From the IMG/VR virus record IMGVR_UViG_3300022198_002230, positions 1 to 25,619 of that record: a stretch of 25,619 bases of DNA; one strand, 5' to 3'. Under the pieces are notes generated by a model. That model was not told where the DNA came from and made no database searches. It was given only the letters and a program-made list of their open reading frames with translations. Shown in pieces: positions 3,192 through 18,087 of this stretch. The position numbers and the translations under genes were made by a program. Position 1 is the first letter of the stretch. Every line of letters begins with the position of its first letter. This DNA is from a virus.

Positions 3192-3374
3192 TTATATTGT
3201 TAGATGACATTCGCATCTCTCTGACTCGATAAGGTTTCCACACCTAATGCACCTACCCTCTTTGAAGTATTTGTCTACTCGACGTGGCCAAAAGAACTGA
3301 TTATCAATCCATTGCAGAATATCTTCATACCAGATTACCTTCAACAACTGTGTAAATTTACGCAACTTCTCCAC
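3192..3374 (-). CDS. Small putative zinc-binding protein
   Basis: 60 aa from a GTG at 3374 (MEKLRKFTQLLKVIWYEDIL...). The C-terminus has CIRCGNLIESERCEC, four cysteines spaced C-x2-C-x8-C-x-C that could bind one zinc. The N-terminal half is helical with aromatic residues. No in-frame ATG is suitable. GTG 3374 overlaps the end of the DnaA-like gene (stop at 3358) by 17 nt; a TTG at 3383 would add three residues. Function unknown. Confidence 0.6.
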   Translation of the reverse strand: MEKLRKFTQLLKVIWYEDILQWIDNQFFWPRRVDKYFKEGRCIRCGNLIESERCECHLTI

Positions 3375-3798
3375 GGGATGCAAGCTTTAGTTCGATTTTT
3401 TTCTGGAATTGTTTCAGGTTCTTGATGGTGTTCTTGATGGTTTTTAGTTCGTCGTGTAGGTTACGCACATGCCCGTACTTGATCTTGGGGTGCACAGCCA
3501 TGCGTGATGCTACGCGATTGCTGATTTCTATTGCGTCGTTGAACTTGGCTACGTAGCTTGGGTAGCTGGACAGCATGGGCTCATGCTCTTTGCAGTAATG
3601 CACGACCGTGCTGTGGTCCTTGCCGAATACCTCGCCAATCTCTCGGTACGAAGTATAAGGCCTCCATGCGTTAGCCAGTGCTGTCCTGTCCTGCACGTAG
3701 TGCTGGAGCCTTGAATCGTTGTCAATGGGGTAGCCCATGCGATGCTCGTATTCGCGTCGTGCGTCGAGCATCATCTGCTTAATGTGTGTGTTCTCCAT
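3358..3798 (-). CDS. Protein with DnaA domain IV-like DNA-binding region
   Basis: 146 aa. Residues 49-72 (YTSYREIGEVFGKDHSTVVHY...) reproduce the signature of the C-terminal DnaA DNA-binding domain: a helix-turn-helix with IGxxFGxxDHSTV followed by a basic/aromatic helix. The ATPase domains of DnaA are absent. The C-terminal third is a basic, probably coiled helix (LHDELKTIKNTIKNLKQFQKKIELKLA). Possible roles are phage origin recognition, competition with host DnaA for DnaA boxes, or transcription control; the sequence cannot choose between them. It lies just upstream of the recombination genes in the minus-strand unit and overlaps the 126-aa gene by 20 nt. Confidence 0.8.
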   Translation of the reverse strand: MENTHIKQMMLDARREYEHRMGYPIDNDSRLQHYVQDRTALANAWRPYTSYREIGEVFGKDHSTVVHYCKEHEPMLSSYPSYVAKFNDAIEISNRVASRMAVHPKIKYGHVRNLHDELKTIKNTIKNLKQFQKKIELKLASRGEVA

Positions 3799-6430: not shown

Positions 6431-6644
6431 CGTCTGTAAATTTTGGTGAGTTCTCCATGATAAACTTGGCGACAAGCTCTTCGATTTCGCTGACCACCTC
6501 GTCTACGTCGTTGTTGTCGAGGTCGTACTCTTCTTGCATCAGCTTGGAGAGTCTCATGTATCCGCTGTCTGCATGAGCAGCTTCGCGGTGGTTGAAGCAG
6601 TCGCTAACGTAGCACCGCAGGTCGTATAAGGTTTCTTTAATCAT
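6420..6644 (-). CDS. Hypothetical small acidic protein
   Basis: 74 aa. Helical, with Cys and His residues early (LRCYVSDCFNHREAAH) that might bind metal, and a very acidic second half (DLDNNDVDEVVSEIEELVAKF). ATG 6644 overlaps the stop of the 211-aa gene by 4 nt. Function unknown. Confidence 0.7.
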   Translation of the reverse strand: MIKETLYDLRCYVSDCFNHREAAHADSGYMRLSKLMQEEYDLDNNDVDEVVSEIEELVAKFIMENSPKFTDDAY

Positions 6645-7276
6645 GATTCAAATGAAATGTTATTGTCCATCCACTCTGACAAGGCGTCTTTGGGTTGGTC
6701 GTAGTTGTCTGAGTCTTTGGGTTTGGGGATTCGGAAAGCGTGCATCACGTAGTCGTCAACGTCGATGAAGGCGTGGTTGCGGTAGTACACAGCGGAGATG
6801 AACTCCGTCAGTTGTTCGAGGCCGTGCTCGTCGGGCTGATTGTCCATCACGTCACTTGATACACGAGCCACCAAGGACATACACAAGGGGAAGTAGTCCC
6901 ATGCAGGGGAGGTGTCCTGTTGGTCCCACGTCAACCAACATGACTCGGTGGAGTCAGAGCGATTGGACATATCGACCTCGATGATGCGGAAGACCTCGAC
7001 ACTTACGTCGTCCATGTTCTCTGCCACCCAGTCGTCGTGGTCCATGTCATGTGGTACACAAGCATGGTAGTCCATGTACTGACGGGTCATGGTGACGATG
7101 ACGTTCATAGGGTCAGAGTCGTCGATGTCTACGCACATCTCGTCCTTGCGATAGTCGCTGAGGATTTGGAGGATGTGCTTGTCTGCGAATCCCCGCTTGG
7201 GGAAGAACTCGCAAGTGGTGTCGGAGTACCCTTCGAAGAGTCCTGCGACAGCGTGGATTACTGCGTATTGTTTCAT
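6641..7276 (-). CDS. Hypothetical acidic protein
   Basis: 211 aa, strongly acidic and rich in Asp, Tyr and Met (DIDDSDPMNVIV, HDMDHDDWVAENMDDV, VDMSNRSDS). The acidity and many aromatics are reminiscent of DNA-mimic or host-inhibitor proteins of phages, but no motif supports that assignment. It starts 4 nt inside the preceding gene. Function unknown. Confidence 0.7.
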   Translation of the reverse strand: MKQYAVIHAVAGLFEGYSDTTCEFFPKRGFADKHILQILSDYRKDEMCVDIDDSDPMNVIVTMTRQYMDYHACVPHDMDHDDWVAENMDDVSVEVFRIIEVDMSNRSDSTESCWLTWDQQDTSPAWDYFPLCMSLVARVSSDVMDNQPDEHGLEQLTEFISAVYYRNHAFIDVDDYVMHAFRIPKPKDSDNYDQPKDALSEWMDNNISFES

Positions 7277-7512
7277 GATGAGAAAGGATTCTTGTAAGTT
7301 TTTTCGATGATGAGGTCAGCTGCCTCGTCGATGTTAGACAGGAGTGTGTACAATGGAGTGGTGCATGAGTGCTTGCCCTCCAAAGAGGCACATGACGCGG
7401 CCATTAGTGATGCCACATCCCTGCCACGGCTGAAGTTGAGGATGAGGTTGACCTTGCTCAGGTCTTCCTGAATTGCTTCGGCAAGTTGCCGTGTGTTCAT
7501 GTCTTGTAACAT
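7273..7512 (-). CDS. Hypothetical small protein behind a conserved leader
   Basis: 79 aa, helical (TRQLAEAIQEDLSKVNLILNFSRGRD...). ATG 7512 lies 10 nt after the shared leader motif CAAACTTCAA (minus strand 7532-7523), the spacing seen at other genes with this motif, so I prefer it to the ATG at 7500. It follows the hairpin at 7547-7606 and starts the downstream string of coupled genes. Function unknown. Confidence 0.65.
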   Translation of the reverse strand: MLQDMNTRQLAEAIQEDLSKVNLILNFSRGRDVASLMAASCASLEGKHSCTTPLYTLLSNIDEAADLIIEKTYKNPFSS

Positions 7513-7522
7513 GGTTATTGAA

Positions 7523-7532
7523 TTGAAGTTTG
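7523..7532 (-). promoter_or_regulatory. Shared 5' leader motif CAAACTTCAA (copy 1)
   Basis: The minus strand reads CAAACTTCAA 10 nt before the ATG at 7512. The same 10-mer precedes five other minus-strand genes at 10-12 nt. It does not resemble a Shine-Dalgarno sequence. Confidence 0.75.
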
Positions 7533-7546
7533 AAAATGATTGATAA

Positions 7547-7606
7547 GTATTGTGTGTATATATACTCTCTTCACTACGTTCAGAGAGAGTATATATACCA
7601 CACTAC
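7547..7606 (-). repeat. Long intergenic hairpin with shared loop (copy 1)
   Basis: Inverted repeat with a core stem of about 15 bp (GTATATATACTCTCT against its complement), extended by a mismatched outer stem of about 8 bp. On the minus strand the loop contains GAACGTAGTGA, which recurs in the hairpins at 8745-8803 and 10153-10211 although the stems differ. Neither side has a T-tract, so it is not an obvious intrinsic terminator. Strand is assigned by gene direction; the repeat itself is nearly symmetrical. Confidence 0.85.
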
Positions 7607-7612
7607 TAATAG

Positions 7613-7687
7613 AAGGGAGGTTGGGATTCGAACACAACTGCCATCAGCCTTTTACCACACTGATGTACGCACCGACTGCGCTCCCTT
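7613..7687 (-). ncRNA. tRNA-like cloverleaf element
   Basis: On the minus strand a perfect 7-bp acceptor-like stem (AAGGGAG with CTCCCTT) encloses three arms: a D-like arm (CGCA, loop GTCGG, TGCG), a middle arm of 6 bp (CATCAG with CTGATG) with an oversized 12-nt loop, and a T-like arm (GTTGTG with CCCAAC, one mismatch) carrying the canonical T-loop TTCGAAT. Total 75 nt. The U8/A9 linker is missing and the 12-nt anticodon loop gives no readable anticodon, so it is probably not a decoding tRNA. It sits in the gap between two minus-strand genes, as the ribozymes do, and could be a substrate for RNase P or RNase Z. A decayed tRNA gene is the alternative. Confidence 0.65.
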
Positions 7688-7696
7688 GATAAAGGT

Positions 7697-7730
7697 GAGG
7701 GAAAGGCGTGACGTTTCACGTCTCCCCCTC
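7697..7730 (-). repeat. Intergenic stem-loop after the 142-aa gene
   Basis: On the minus strand nested stems GAGGG/CCCTC and GACG/CGTC close a TGAAA loop. It lies 12 nt after the stop at 7743 and just before the tRNA-like element. No T-tract follows. Confidence 0.55.
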
Positions 7731-7742
7731 GATGGTCAAACT

Positions 7743-8171
7743 TCAATCAACCAATTCCTTTTCGAGAAGGCCATCTTCCACGATGCCTTCTATAATGTGG
7801 TCAATGATGCGGTCGATTACACCCGCTTGGTCGCTCCAATTCCCGTACCCTTTGGCGTCATGCAGGAACTCATTGAGTTGCTTGTACATATCGGAAGGGA
7901 TGTGGCGTCGAAGATACTCTACCATGTCTTCGTAGTATGAATCCATAGTGATGTCACCCTCATCCCACTCCCGCCACAGGTTGCAGAACCCGTTGTTGTA
8001 GTAGTCGTACCCGACACGAGAGATAGCACGGAGGGCTTCGGGCCACCCGTCTTCCGCTTCGCCTGATGCAGGGATAAGCTGTTCCCATGCCTTGCTGTAC
8101 TGCTCTTGGTACTTGCCTTCATTGTCCCAGTAAGTACCCCATGGTTGGTCTTTCACTTGTGTATCAGCCAT
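7743..8171 (-). CDS. Hypothetical acidic protein
   Basis: 142 aa, rich in Trp, Tyr, Asp and Glu (PWGTYWDNEGKYQEQYSKAWEQLIP; VGYDYYNNGFCNLWREWDEGD). Helical, no family recognised. Its start overlaps the stop of the 47-aa gene (AATGGCTGA), so it is coupled to it. Its stop is followed by the stem-loop, tRNA-like element and long hairpin, the largest non-coding gap (230 nt) in the early unit. Confidence 0.7.
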   Translation of the reverse strand: MADTQVKDQPWGTYWDNEGKYQEQYSKAWEQLIPASGEAEDGWPEALRAISRVGYDYYNNGFCNLWREWDEGDITMDSYYEDMVEYLRRHIPSDMYKQLNEFLHDAKGYGNWSDQAGVIDRIIDHIIEGIVEDGLLEKELVD

Positions 8172-9842: not shown

Positions 9843-9854
9843 GAGATTGGAAAT

Positions 9855-9864
9855 TTGAAGTTTG
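9855..9864 (-). promoter_or_regulatory. Shared 5' leader motif CAAACTTCAA (copy 3)
   Basis: Minus-strand CAAACTTCAA, 12 nt before the ATG at 9842. Its first base is the last base of hammerhead stem I (strand 3' of the cut), so it stays on the mRNA after cleavage. Confidence 0.75.
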
Positions 9865-9913
9865 ATACAGACCCCGTAAGGGGTTTCGCCTATTCAAGGC
9901 TCATCAGTGTACC
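9864..9913 (-). ncRNA. Type-I hammerhead ribozyme 1
   Basis: All invariant hammerhead parts are present in order on the minus strand: stem I strand GGTACA, CTGATGA, stem II GCC-TTGAATA-GGC, GAAA, stem III ACCCC-TTAC-GGGGT, C, then stem I strand TGTATC. The cleavage triplet is GTC at 9872-9870, so the cut falls between 9870 and 9869. Stems II and III are closed by loops and stem I is open, which makes it type I. Stem I pairs over 6 bp with one G-U. It occupies the gap between the stop at 9921 and the ATG at 9842. Cleavage would leave a 27-nt leader on the downstream gene. Confidence 0.92.
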
Positions 9914-10124: not shown

Positions 10125-10136
10125 GATGATTGAGTT

Positions 10137-10146
10137 TTGAAGTTTG
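10137..10146 (-). promoter_or_regulatory. Shared 5' leader motif CAAACTTCAA (copy 4)
   Basis: Minus-strand CAAACTTCAA, 12 nt before the ATG at 10124. Here it is part of ATGTCAAACTTCAA, the same 14-mer that starts the coding region of the histone-like gene at 12120. Confidence 0.75.
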
Positions 10147-10152
10147 ACATTT

Positions 10153-10213: not shown

Positions 10214-10297
10214 TTAGGATTGGAGGATTGCCACCACCAAAAGCGTGGCCATCCATGCAAGGAACGCGAGGAACGCGATGTTCAATCGTTTGTTCAT
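10214..10297 (-). CDS. Putative 27-aa single-pass membrane peptide
   Basis: ATG at 10297, stop at 10214. The basic head MNKRLN is followed by about 20 hydrophobic residues (IAFLAFLAWMATLLVVAILQ) and a short tail. That is the pattern of a small inner-membrane protein with its N-terminus inside. It fills the gap between the hairpin at 10153-10211 and the stop at 10313. Phages encode such peptides as lysis modulators, superinfection-exclusion factors or toxins; which applies is unknown. Confidence 0.6.
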   Translation of the reverse strand: MNKRLNIAFLAFLAWMATLLVVAILQS

Positions 10298-10908: not shown

Positions 10909-10920
10909 CGTAGATGAATT

Positions 10921-10930
10921 TTGAAGTTTG
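10921..10930 (-). promoter_or_regulatory. Shared 5' leader motif CAAACTTCAA (copy 5)
   Basis: Minus-strand CAAACTTCAA, 12 nt before the ATG at 10908, overlapping the end of hammerhead 2 by one base exactly as copy 3 does for hammerhead 1. Confidence 0.75.
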
Positions 10931-10983
10931 ATACAGACACCACTTTCGTGGTGTTTCGTCCAATCAGGACTCATCAGTGTACC
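10930..10983 (-). ncRNA. Type-I hammerhead ribozyme 2
   Basis: Minus strand: stem I strand GGTACA, CTGATGA, stem II GTCC-TGATT-GGAC, GAAA, stem III ACACCAC with GAAA tetraloop and GTGGTGT, C, stem I strand TGTATC. The cleavage triplet GTC is at 10938-10936, so the cut falls between 10936 and 10935. The core and stem I equal hammerhead 1, whereas stems II and III differ in sequence and length but remain fully paired. It lies between the stop at 10996 and the ATG at 10908; cleavage would leave a 27-nt leader, the same length as at hammerhead 1. Confidence 0.93.
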
Positions 10984-11142: not shown

Positions 11143-11154
11143 AGGGAAATTGAA

Positions 11155-11164
11155 TTGAAGTTTG
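11155..11164 (-). promoter_or_regulatory. Shared 5' leader motif CAAACTTCAA (copy 6)
   Basis: Minus-strand CAAACTTCAA, 12 nt before the ATG at 11142, downstream of the hairpin at 11182-11236. Confidence 0.75.
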
Positions 11165-11181
11165 AAAATTGAGTTCAAAGT

Positions 11182-12852: not shown

Positions 12853-13458
12853 ATGAGAACAGCATATAGAGCCCAATCGGGCATGAAAGTACAGAAGGAT
12901 CCCCCCAAGGGTTATCGTTACAACGAGGCTGGGAACTTAGTTCCTGTGGATTTCAGTGAATTTCACAGTGAGGGGGACAATTATTTGAATCTTGCTGCTT
13001 TGGACAGCATTGTTCAGTCCCCTTACCGCAATGCTATGATTGATTTTGCGGAGTTTAGGGACCAAGTAAGAAGGGTTGAGGCTGGTCCTGACTCACCAGA
13101 CCCGTATAGGCAGCGTCAGATAGTTACTGTTGATGGTGTCGACATACCTGTAGGTGTTGGGAGGGGTGCTTACCAGTTTGACTACCCTACAGCACAGACA
13201 GCATACAACAGGTTGAAGTCTATTGCAGAGAAAAGGAATATGGAGTATCCTGAGTTGAGTGACGATGAGCTGAGGGATGTGAGCTCTTTGGATCCAGAGA
13301 TACAGGACATGTTGTTTACGGCTCACTTTGCCAAAGACCCTTCTACTTCGGTTGAAAAGGTTCTTTCTAGCAAAGAGAACTGGGCTGATCAGTATCAGGT
13401 TGGACACTTTAAGGGTGAGAAGGACAGAAGAGATCACTTCAGAAGCCTTATGCAATGA
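12853..13458 (+). CDS. Lysozyme-like virion protein (putative peptidoglycan hydrolase)
   Basis: 201 aa from ATG 12853. Residues about 75-190 have a lysozyme/transglycosylase-like arrangement: a helix ending in VRRVEAGPDSPD with a possible catalytic Glu, then GVGRGAYQFD, a pattern shared with phage tail lysozymes where an aromatic Q-F/D segment follows the active-site helix, then helices TAQTAYNRLKSIAEK and LDPEIQDMLFTAHFAK. The N-terminal 50 residues look like a separate, flexible piece. It may open the cell wall during DNA entry or help lysis. First late gene, overlapping the next by 4 nt. Assignment is by motif pattern, not a secure family match. Confidence 0.5.
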   Translation: MRTAYRAQSGMKVQKDPPKGYRYNEAGNLVPVDFSEFHSEGDNYLNLAALDSIVQSPYRNAMIDFAEFRDQVRRVEAGPDSPDPYRQRQIVTVDGVDIPVGVGRGAYQFDYPTAQTAYNRLKSIAEKRNMEYPELSDDELRDVSSLDPEIQDMLFTAHFAKDPSTSVEKVLSSKENWADQYQVGHFKGEKDRRDHFRSLMQ

Positions 13459-15964: not shown

Positions 15965-16201
15965 ATGCAAGGACTTATTAGGAAAATTATTGTCGGCAGA
16001 GACCCGAAAGACGCGATGGCGTACTATGTAGGGATGAAGGCAGGCACAGGCAAGGTTAGCGCTATAGTGTTAGACGAAGAACACTTATACAGATACAGTA
16101 AGAAAAGATATCTTGTATATTTGCAGTCGGATGACGGTCAGGTGCTGTGGAAGTCTGTCGACGACATGCCATGTATGATAGAATTTGATTGCAACTTCTG
16201 A
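15965..16201 (+). CDS. Hypothetical small protein
   Basis: 78 aa from ATG 15965 (MQGLIRKIIVGRDPKDAMAYYVGMKAG...). Strand-rich C-terminal half (KVSAIVLDEEHLY, RYLVYLQSDDGQVLWKSV). The A/T-rich context TTAATTAAA just before the ATG is typical here. The stop overlaps the next ATG (TGATG). No family recognised. Confidence 0.65.
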   Translation: MQGLIRKIIVGRDPKDAMAYYVGMKAGTGKVSAIVLDEEHLYRYSKKRYLVYLQSDDGQVLWKSVDDMPCMIEFDCNF

Positions 16202-17469: not shown

Positions 17470-17543
17470 TGGGGCGTAGTTCAGTTGGTTAGAGCGTCTG
17501 TCTTATACACAGGAAGTCGTGGGTTCAAGTCCCACCGCCCCAA
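17470..17543 (+). tRNA. tRNA-Ile (anticodon UAU)
   Basis: Canonical cloverleaf, 74 nt: acceptor TGGGGCG/CGCCCCA, TA at 8-9, D-arm GTTC/GAGC, anticodon arm TCTGT-CTTATAC-ACAGG giving anticodon UAU, T-arm GTGGG-TTCAAGT-CCCAC. It reads AUA. CCA is not encoded. Confidence 0.93.
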
Positions 17544-17560
17544 CAAATAAAATTTAAACC

Positions 17561-17998: not shown

Positions 17999-18072
17999 GC
18001 GCCCGTAGCTCAGCTGGACAGAGCATTTGCCTTCTAAGCAAACGGTCACAGGTTCGAATCCTGTCGGGCGTA
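17999..18072 (+). tRNA. tRNA-Arg (anticodon UCU)
   Basis: Canonical cloverleaf, 74 nt: acceptor GCGCCCG/CGGGCGT (one G-U), TA at 8-9, D-arm GCTC/GAGC, anticodon arm TTTGC-CTTCTAA-GCAAA with anticodon UCU, T-arm ACAGG-TTCGAAT-CCTGT. It reads AGA, a codon common in the downstream late genes. CCA not encoded. Confidence 0.94.
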
Positions 18073-18087
18073 CTAAATTGAATTAAA

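Follow-up and report, generated by a model that had tools for sequence, protein, structure and literature searches.

An anticodon-less tRNA-like element in a phage operon gap belongs to a conserved family of tRNA mimics

What does a tRNA-like cloverleaf do in the gap between two phage genes when it has no anticodon to be read? The question is raised by a virus record of 25,619 bases, analyzed here over its whole length and referred to as the window. A cloverleaf without a usable anticodon was originally predicted in it from sequence, and a processing mark, a tRNA mimic, and a decaying tRNA gene were offered as readings. The host is probably a Bacteroidetes bacterium, because the nearest relatives of the window's terminase (at most 49% identity) belong to the environmental podophage ctfjg026, Flavobacterium elemo phages, and Cellulophaga phages.

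Results

Most window genes to the left of ~12.1 kb are carried on the minus strand, and the element sits in that part, on the strand of the surrounding operon. As predicted, it occupies a gap between same-strand genes, running from a stop codon at 7743 to a start at 7512. The upstream gene (7743..8171, minus strand, 142 aa) has syntenic homologues in several relatives, and a family search returned no family for it. Downstream are a small gene (7273..7512, minus strand, 79 aa) and a conserved gene of unknown function (6641..7276, minus strand, 211 aa), which served as the synteny anchor. Elsewhere, the window contains ordinary genes for tRNA-Ile(tat) (17470-17544) and tRNA-Arg(tct) (17999-18073), both on the plus strand and with similar tRNAs in some relatives. 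Positions 3358-3798 (minus strand) encode a protein with a DnaA C-terminal-like helix-turn-helix that scores slightly below the Pfam cut-off.

Sequence, folds, a covariance model (R1), and covariation define an anticodon-less tRNA-like element, here termed class A, at 7613..7687 on the minus strand, and the predicted coordinates were correct. The perfect acceptor-like stem is 7 bp long (AAGGGAG/CTCCCTT, 7687-7681/7619-7613) and adjoins, with no bases between them, a 3-bp D-like stem (CGC/GCG, 7680-7678/7670-7668), whose loop (AGTCGGT) carries the GG of the tRNA elbow at 7673-7672. The middle arm (CATCAG/CTGATG, 6 bp, 7665-7660/7647-7642) closes a 12-nt loop (7659-7648), and an anticodon loop is absent; the perfect acceptor-like stem, the D-like arm, and the 12-nt loop of the middle arm are as originally predicted. 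The T-arm stood in part: the loop is TTCGAAT (7632-7626) as described, but the stem (GTTGTG/CCCAAC, 7638-7633/7625-7620) is imperfect, with one U.C mismatch at a pair that is also unpaired in 30 of 31 aligned members. With this conserved mismatch included, the T-arm and acceptor helix of class A measures 13 bp, compared to 12 in tRNA; across the classes described below the length is 12-13 bp, a range partly imposed by the descriptor. In three dimensions, the D-loop GG would be expected to dock on the T-loop and form an elbow. Folding of the 75-nt element alone gave a modest minimum free energy (z -1.83). The whole intercistronic stretch (7760..7505) reached z -7.40 against shuffled sequences, with none of 200 shuffles as good.

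Relatives were collected using an exact 23-mer from the 3' side of the element, which identified 29 viral stretches; together with two patterns, this gave 36 records beside the window's. Model R1, built from 24 sequences, finds the element in 37 of 37 records, all of which were chosen for carrying it, and scores 91.8 bits at the window copy, itself among the training sequences. Class A is single in 34 of the 37 records; G005 has two identical copies at its ends, and G009 and G019 each give a weak second match. The L005 contig has identical inverted ends with an element on each, by appearance an assembly artefact. A synteny test, with the protein of gene 6641-7276 as the query, returned 43 loci (partly the same contigs as the 23-mer matches), 35 of which extend 500 nt or more beyond the gene on its upstream side. 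The AAGGGAG element lies no more than 1 kb upstream of the anchor gene in 31 of these 35 informative loci, and antisense matches were found in none of the 43. In L081, a variant form (AAAGACG) is located 2 kb upstream of this gene, and L074 has the element 2.4 kb downstream; none is visible in the short locus L075, and L056 contains the anchor gene without element, up-arm, or leader (see below). In L015, L031, L034, L080, and L081, the element apparently follows a stop codon by no more than ~20 nt.

Presence in relatives with the same odd loop was one of the checks originally proposed: the element is present at the site, but its middle arm ranges from absent, via CATC-TACG-GATG, to more than 70 nt, while the acceptor, D, and T parts are near-constant. 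Members in L079 and L080 are 49 nt long and consist of only the acceptor, D, and T arms. Long D-loop inserts occur in L050, L063, and L006/L065, with the GG retained there and wherever else it was examined; the T-loop TTCRANY is likewise retained, and a different T-stem is found in L062 and L078 to L081. In an alignment of 31 members, ten pairs are changed on both sides (four in the acceptor, one in the D stem, three in the middle arm, and two in the T-stem). The covariation score was 0.176; shuffled alignments averaged 0.068, none of 500 reached the observed value, and slid controls scored far lower. The scaffolds of the window and L003 are identical at 52 of 52 positions, compared to 50% identity at third codon positions of the neighboring gene. 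Identity was 52/52 in 14 of 20 comparisons and 50/52 in four, with lower values for L006 and L007 due to their D-loop insertions.

The element does not qualify as a canonical tRNA. The tRNA-finder and Infernal-type check proposed with the prediction called none: ARAGORN reported no tRNA at the element, though it called the two ordinary tRNA genes of the window (at 17470 and 17999), and Rfam gave no tRNA match there at the gathering score, nor at E<=10 over 7500-7800. In place of a readable 7-nt anticodon loop there is a 12-nt loop in the window and a 4-nt loop or no arm in relatives, but the family does possess the TTCRANY T-loop and D-loop GG of canonical tRNA. This combination resembles mascRNA and t-elements, in which the top half of tRNA with its elbow (here predicted) exists without a functional anticodon; its DNA position also places the element at the end of a different transcript unit on the same strand. 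No tmRNA, in which tRNA-like ends accompany a tag reading frame, was called by ARAGORN in the window, and the elements span 49-130 nt. Rejection by ARAGORN and Rfam is what a decaying tRNA gene or a chance fold would also give, but either origin is now hardly credible. A normal tRNA occupies the site in none of the relatives examined, the scaffold is more conserved than adjacent third codon positions, and the 49-nt members without a middle arm still have the acceptor, D-loop GG, and T-loop. Relatives share the scaffold with compensatory changes and synteny, and no shuffle reached the covariation score. Searches with blastn, using the element and 7500-7800 against phage records, returned short chance matches and no homologue. 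A host origin was considered and rejected, as a degenerate T-arm/acceptor pattern, representing one T-stem type only, had no matches in genome contigs. The element represents a family of RNAs in marine phages and results from neither tRNA decay nor chance.

Further anticodon-less classes were identified using a descriptor comprising the T-loop, T-stem, and acceptor, which ordinary tRNAs also match. It gave 114 matches (63 distinct) in 671,402 real bases (loci plus window) and none in 342,550 block-shuffled bases; the class A share of this count is not independent evidence because an extra T-stem pair was allowed once the family was known. Class B was found in L002 and L004, class C in L007, L055, and L062, class D (56 nt minimum) in L050, L062, and L063, and class E in L014. 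Most of these follow class A immediately within the shared gap, as tandem elements that separate other stretches. Class G (L007:7528-7597, minus strand; L023:681-747, plus strand; L090) has the look of a normal tRNA with GAAA or TAT replacing the anticodon loop; the L007 copy is a tRNA by Rfam (38.8 bits) and is assigned a two-base anticodon by ARAGORN.

Sequenced phages contain similar uncalled elements: one in Cellulophaga phage phi13:2 (27796-27875) between gp072 and mazG; one in Cellulophaga phage phi38:1 (20817-20679, equivalent to L134:880-1018 on the minus strand) between gp031 and rtcB; and one in ctfjg026 (523-629) resembling tRNA-Leu with an enlarged anticodon loop. The phi38:1 element has a long middle arm, lies immediately 5' to rtcB, the RNA ligase gene of this phage, and scores 28.9 bits with the Rfam tRNA model, against a cut-off of 29. 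R1 gave no match in elemoA, phi38:1, or ctfjg026; the descriptor detected non-class-A tRNA-like elements in phi38:1 and ctfjg026 and none uncalled in elemoA, and it also flagged spurious-looking long spans and odd real tRNAs in phi38:1, phi13:2, and Gundel_1. Separately, an odd 76-nt tRNA-like RNA (CCTCAAGCTTATACCTTGTAGAAAG) recurs, often close to tRNA-Arg(tct) (L029:13251-13326, plus strand; L020:5529-5604, minus strand; G008 10218-10293; G027 13231-13306; G028 16062-16137), and was not called by ARAGORN in L020, L029, or G008. Two other stretches recur around class A. The first, CCTTGTCAGGTGTGGTGGGG ... AATGACTGACGGCTCGGAAAGACGAGC, is near the element in L001, L002, L003, L004, L014, and L080; it looks like another structured RNA and had no Rfam match in the loci scanned. 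The second, AGTCGGCGGACGTTAAACGC ... GACGTTCAGGC, is downstream of the element in L002, L006, L025, and L047 and is probably a structured RNA.

The element is flanked by hairpins on the minus strand. About 30 nt on its 5' side is a GC-rich hairpin (7697..7730) followed by a U-rich stretch; on its 3' side is an AU-rich hairpin with perfect 15-bp arms (7556..7598). The loop motif of the GC hairpin, TGAAACGTCA (7718-7709), occurs once in the window; most relatives conserve it on the upstream side of the element at a distance of 29-32 nt (~110 nt for L021 and L037), while L014, L015, L031, L034, L080, and L081 have the element without this hairpin. A terminator scan did not call the GC hairpin, and across 7400-7900 of the window neither a terminator nor a sigma-70-like promoter was reported. 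The sequence TAnnTTTG is a Bacteroidetes-type promoter box, and promoter-like boxes of this form occur downstream in L003, L027, L028, and L036.

Two further segments bracket these structures. An up-arm, TTGGTTGATTGAAGTTTGACCA (7733..7754, minus strand), overlaps the stop codon of the upstream gene and is complementary to a leader motif, TCAAACTTCAAT (7522..7533, minus strand), located upstream of the ATG of gene 7273-7512. In the predicted fold of 7760..7505, the up-arm and leader form a helix closed over the GC hairpin, tRNA-like element, and AU hairpin. The leader motif recurs on the minus strand before other operon genes, at 11154..11165 and, with one mismatch to TCAAACTTCAAT, at 9854..9865, 10136..10147, and 10920..10931; the up-arm, written as TTGAAGTTTGA, is complementary to TCAAACTTCAA, a sequence that immediately precedes the start codon in five minus-strand window genes. 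Near-matches to the 12-mer number seven in the window (one being the up-arm itself), against 0.23 expected. Among 42 sequence groups, several of them closely related and not independent (L037 and L060 are the same contig), 34 have both up-arm and leader and eight have neither. The two segments also covary: T replaces A in the up-arms of G028 and G023, and A replaces T in every one of their six leaders; with two A-type records, this may amount to one or two events. Elsewhere T-type leaders dominate, with exceptions of one C in G027, one A in G011, and two C in L005, and predicted duplexes are 3-4.3 kcal/mol better when the up-arm and leader types match. The element was found without up-arm or leader in L003, L014, L015, L031 to L033, and L081, all fragment loci. 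This pattern suggests a regulatory RNA, whose 3' end is perhaps set by the mimic. An sRNA regulon of the phage is one possible explanation; an inverted-orientation DNA site bound by a protein is another that could generate the same covariation.

Discussion

Covariation and conservation strongly support the identification of the element as a tRNA mimic in structure, one of the readings first offered. The original account is supported only in part overall, as it missed that the element belongs to a family, that one arm is hypervariable, and that an upstream segment covaries with a leader. Processing punctuation is the best-supported function, given stop-codon adjacency, the exclusively sense orientation, the use of tandem copies as separators, and the elbow with its coaxial helix. 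We propose, with moderate confidence, that the element is an anticodon-less mimic of the tRNA elbow that punctuates the transcript via host RNase P and RNase Z. It probably marks a cut site in a viral message rather than aiding protein synthesis, because the features read by trimming enzymes are kept and the anticodon is absent; the parallels with mascRNA and t-elements, which also keep the elbow and acceptor/T helix, lead to the same reading. The element sits within the 3' UTR of an operon gene and is probably transcribed through with the operon. The features that end-processing enzymes measure (the acceptor stacked on the T-stem and the D-loop GG docked on the T-loop) appear to be kept, and the decoding arm given up. 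Host RNase P would then cut at the 5' end of the element and RNase Z at or near its 3' end; the upstream RNA (up-arm, GC hairpin, and U-rich tail) would gain a 3' end from the cut and be separated from the downstream gene, and its up-arm could pair with the downstream gene's leader in cis or, once released, in trans. Expression, abundance, cleavage, and regulation of the element are what we infer in proposing this scheme. A more tentative extension is that the tandem mimics are cut-marks releasing a trans-acting sRNA, whose seed UUGAAGUUUGACC pairs with the leader before several phage starts, making an RNA-run regulon matured by host tRNA enzymes.

Some observations fit punctuation less well. 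The letters of the scaffold, not just its pairs, are near-invariant, which exceeds the need of a purely structure-reading nuclease and may therefore mean a sequence-reading partner. One class A copy per genome is unusual for a general punctuation mark, and, at 13 bp, the T-arm and acceptor helix is longer than the 12 bp of tRNA and includes a conserved mismatch. In relatives with a longer U run, the upstream GC hairpin and U-rich stretch could stop transcription before the element is reached.

The letter-level conservation of a scaffold whose middle arm is free, together with the existence of several classes, would also suit a stand-alone decoy, a stable small RNA titrating a host protein that reads the tRNA body, such as a tRNA-targeting defense nuclease, a tRNA-modifying enzyme, EF-Tu, or the CCA enzyme. 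Lacking an anticodon, such an RNA would be immune to anticodon nucleases and excluded from the ribosome. Class G, an otherwise normal-looking tRNA with a swapped anticodon loop, is in keeping with this idea, and an excerpt of PMC7790460 proposes that the tRNA-like domain of YrlA inhibits an anticodon nuclease competitively. We nevertheless regard the decoy as rather unlikely: no link to defense was found, no promoter of its own was seen, and a free sRNA gene would have no need to occupy the one operon gap, in sense and adjacent to a stop codon, in nearly every case. Less probable still is an RNA switch acting in cis, in which the start region of gene 7273-7512 is masked by the up-arm/leader helix, which a protein binding or cutting at the tRNA-like element opens. 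The minimum free energy and centroid structures of 7760..7505 both close a helix near the start codon, and its two strands covary. However, the leader precedes several genes, so the pairing cannot be in cis alone, and the fragment loci noted above have the element with neither strand found.

A phage Y RNA of the YrlA type, a tRNA-mimic partner of Ro60, was a further candidate, and a very improbable one. Chen reportedly described the tRNA-like domain of YrlA in 2014. Rfam 15 holds a Y RNA model, and the element has no match to Y RNA. Its own ends form the acceptor stem, unlike YrlA, and Ro60 (TROVE) was found in 0 of 21 and 0 of 2 phage records searched, many of them fragments. The position of the phi38:1 element directly 5' of rtcB spoke for a Y RNA, but phi38:1 is the sole carrier of RtcB among 25, and this link was rejected. 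The likeness to YrlA is that of a noncoding RNA with a tRNA-like domain, as an available section of PMC7790460 has it.

The processing mark favored here has parallels elsewhere. Searches of open-licence papers on tRNA-like phage RNAs, Y RNAs, anticodon-less tRNAs, and related subjects returned no description of this family. The T4 stable RNAs C and D are stable phage RNAs made beside tRNAs; a literature search on them returned nothing. A close likeness is to mascRNA and menRNA, described in the accessible portion of PMC11693755 as missing the tRNA junction linkers and having a reduced D arm, from which two Gs dock on the T-loop; it calls these elbow Gs crucial for RNase P and RNase Z. These RNAs share with the element the acceptor and T arms, a compact nondecoding middle arm, and a location at the 3' end of another RNA. 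They are human nuclear lncRNAs, from the 3' ends of MALAT1 and MEN-beta, and a sequence relation is not claimed; the phage elements, in contrast, are often tandem, have a middle arm that varies from absent to more than 70 nt, and are putatively cleaved. The t-elements of plant mitochondria are tRNA-like structures at the ends of mRNAs; RNase P and RNase Z cut them, and they are CCA-tailed and unaminoacylated, according to part of PMC11658184. They are homologous to tRNA genes, whereas class A has no anticodon arm proper and a tRNA ancestor was not found. The Bacillus cereus pseudo-tRNA tRNA-Other likewise acts as a tRNA-like RNA outside translation but has a Trp anticodon and a chromosomal gene, as stated in an extract of PMC3399842. 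A precedent among phage small RNAs cut by RNase P is provided by phi80 M3 RNA and C4 antisense RNA, and the available text of PMC11143913 does not describe a tRNA-elbow family or tandem array for them.

This natural family would show what a minimal tRNA looks like once decoding is dropped, a 49-nt molecule with acceptor, D, and T arms, and adds a class of phage noncoding RNA that tRNA finders and Rfam miss. The element is open to experiment because similar elements exist in phages isolated on Cellulophaga baltica. If the upstream seed and leader do act in trans, they would represent RNA-based control inside Bacteroidetes phages.
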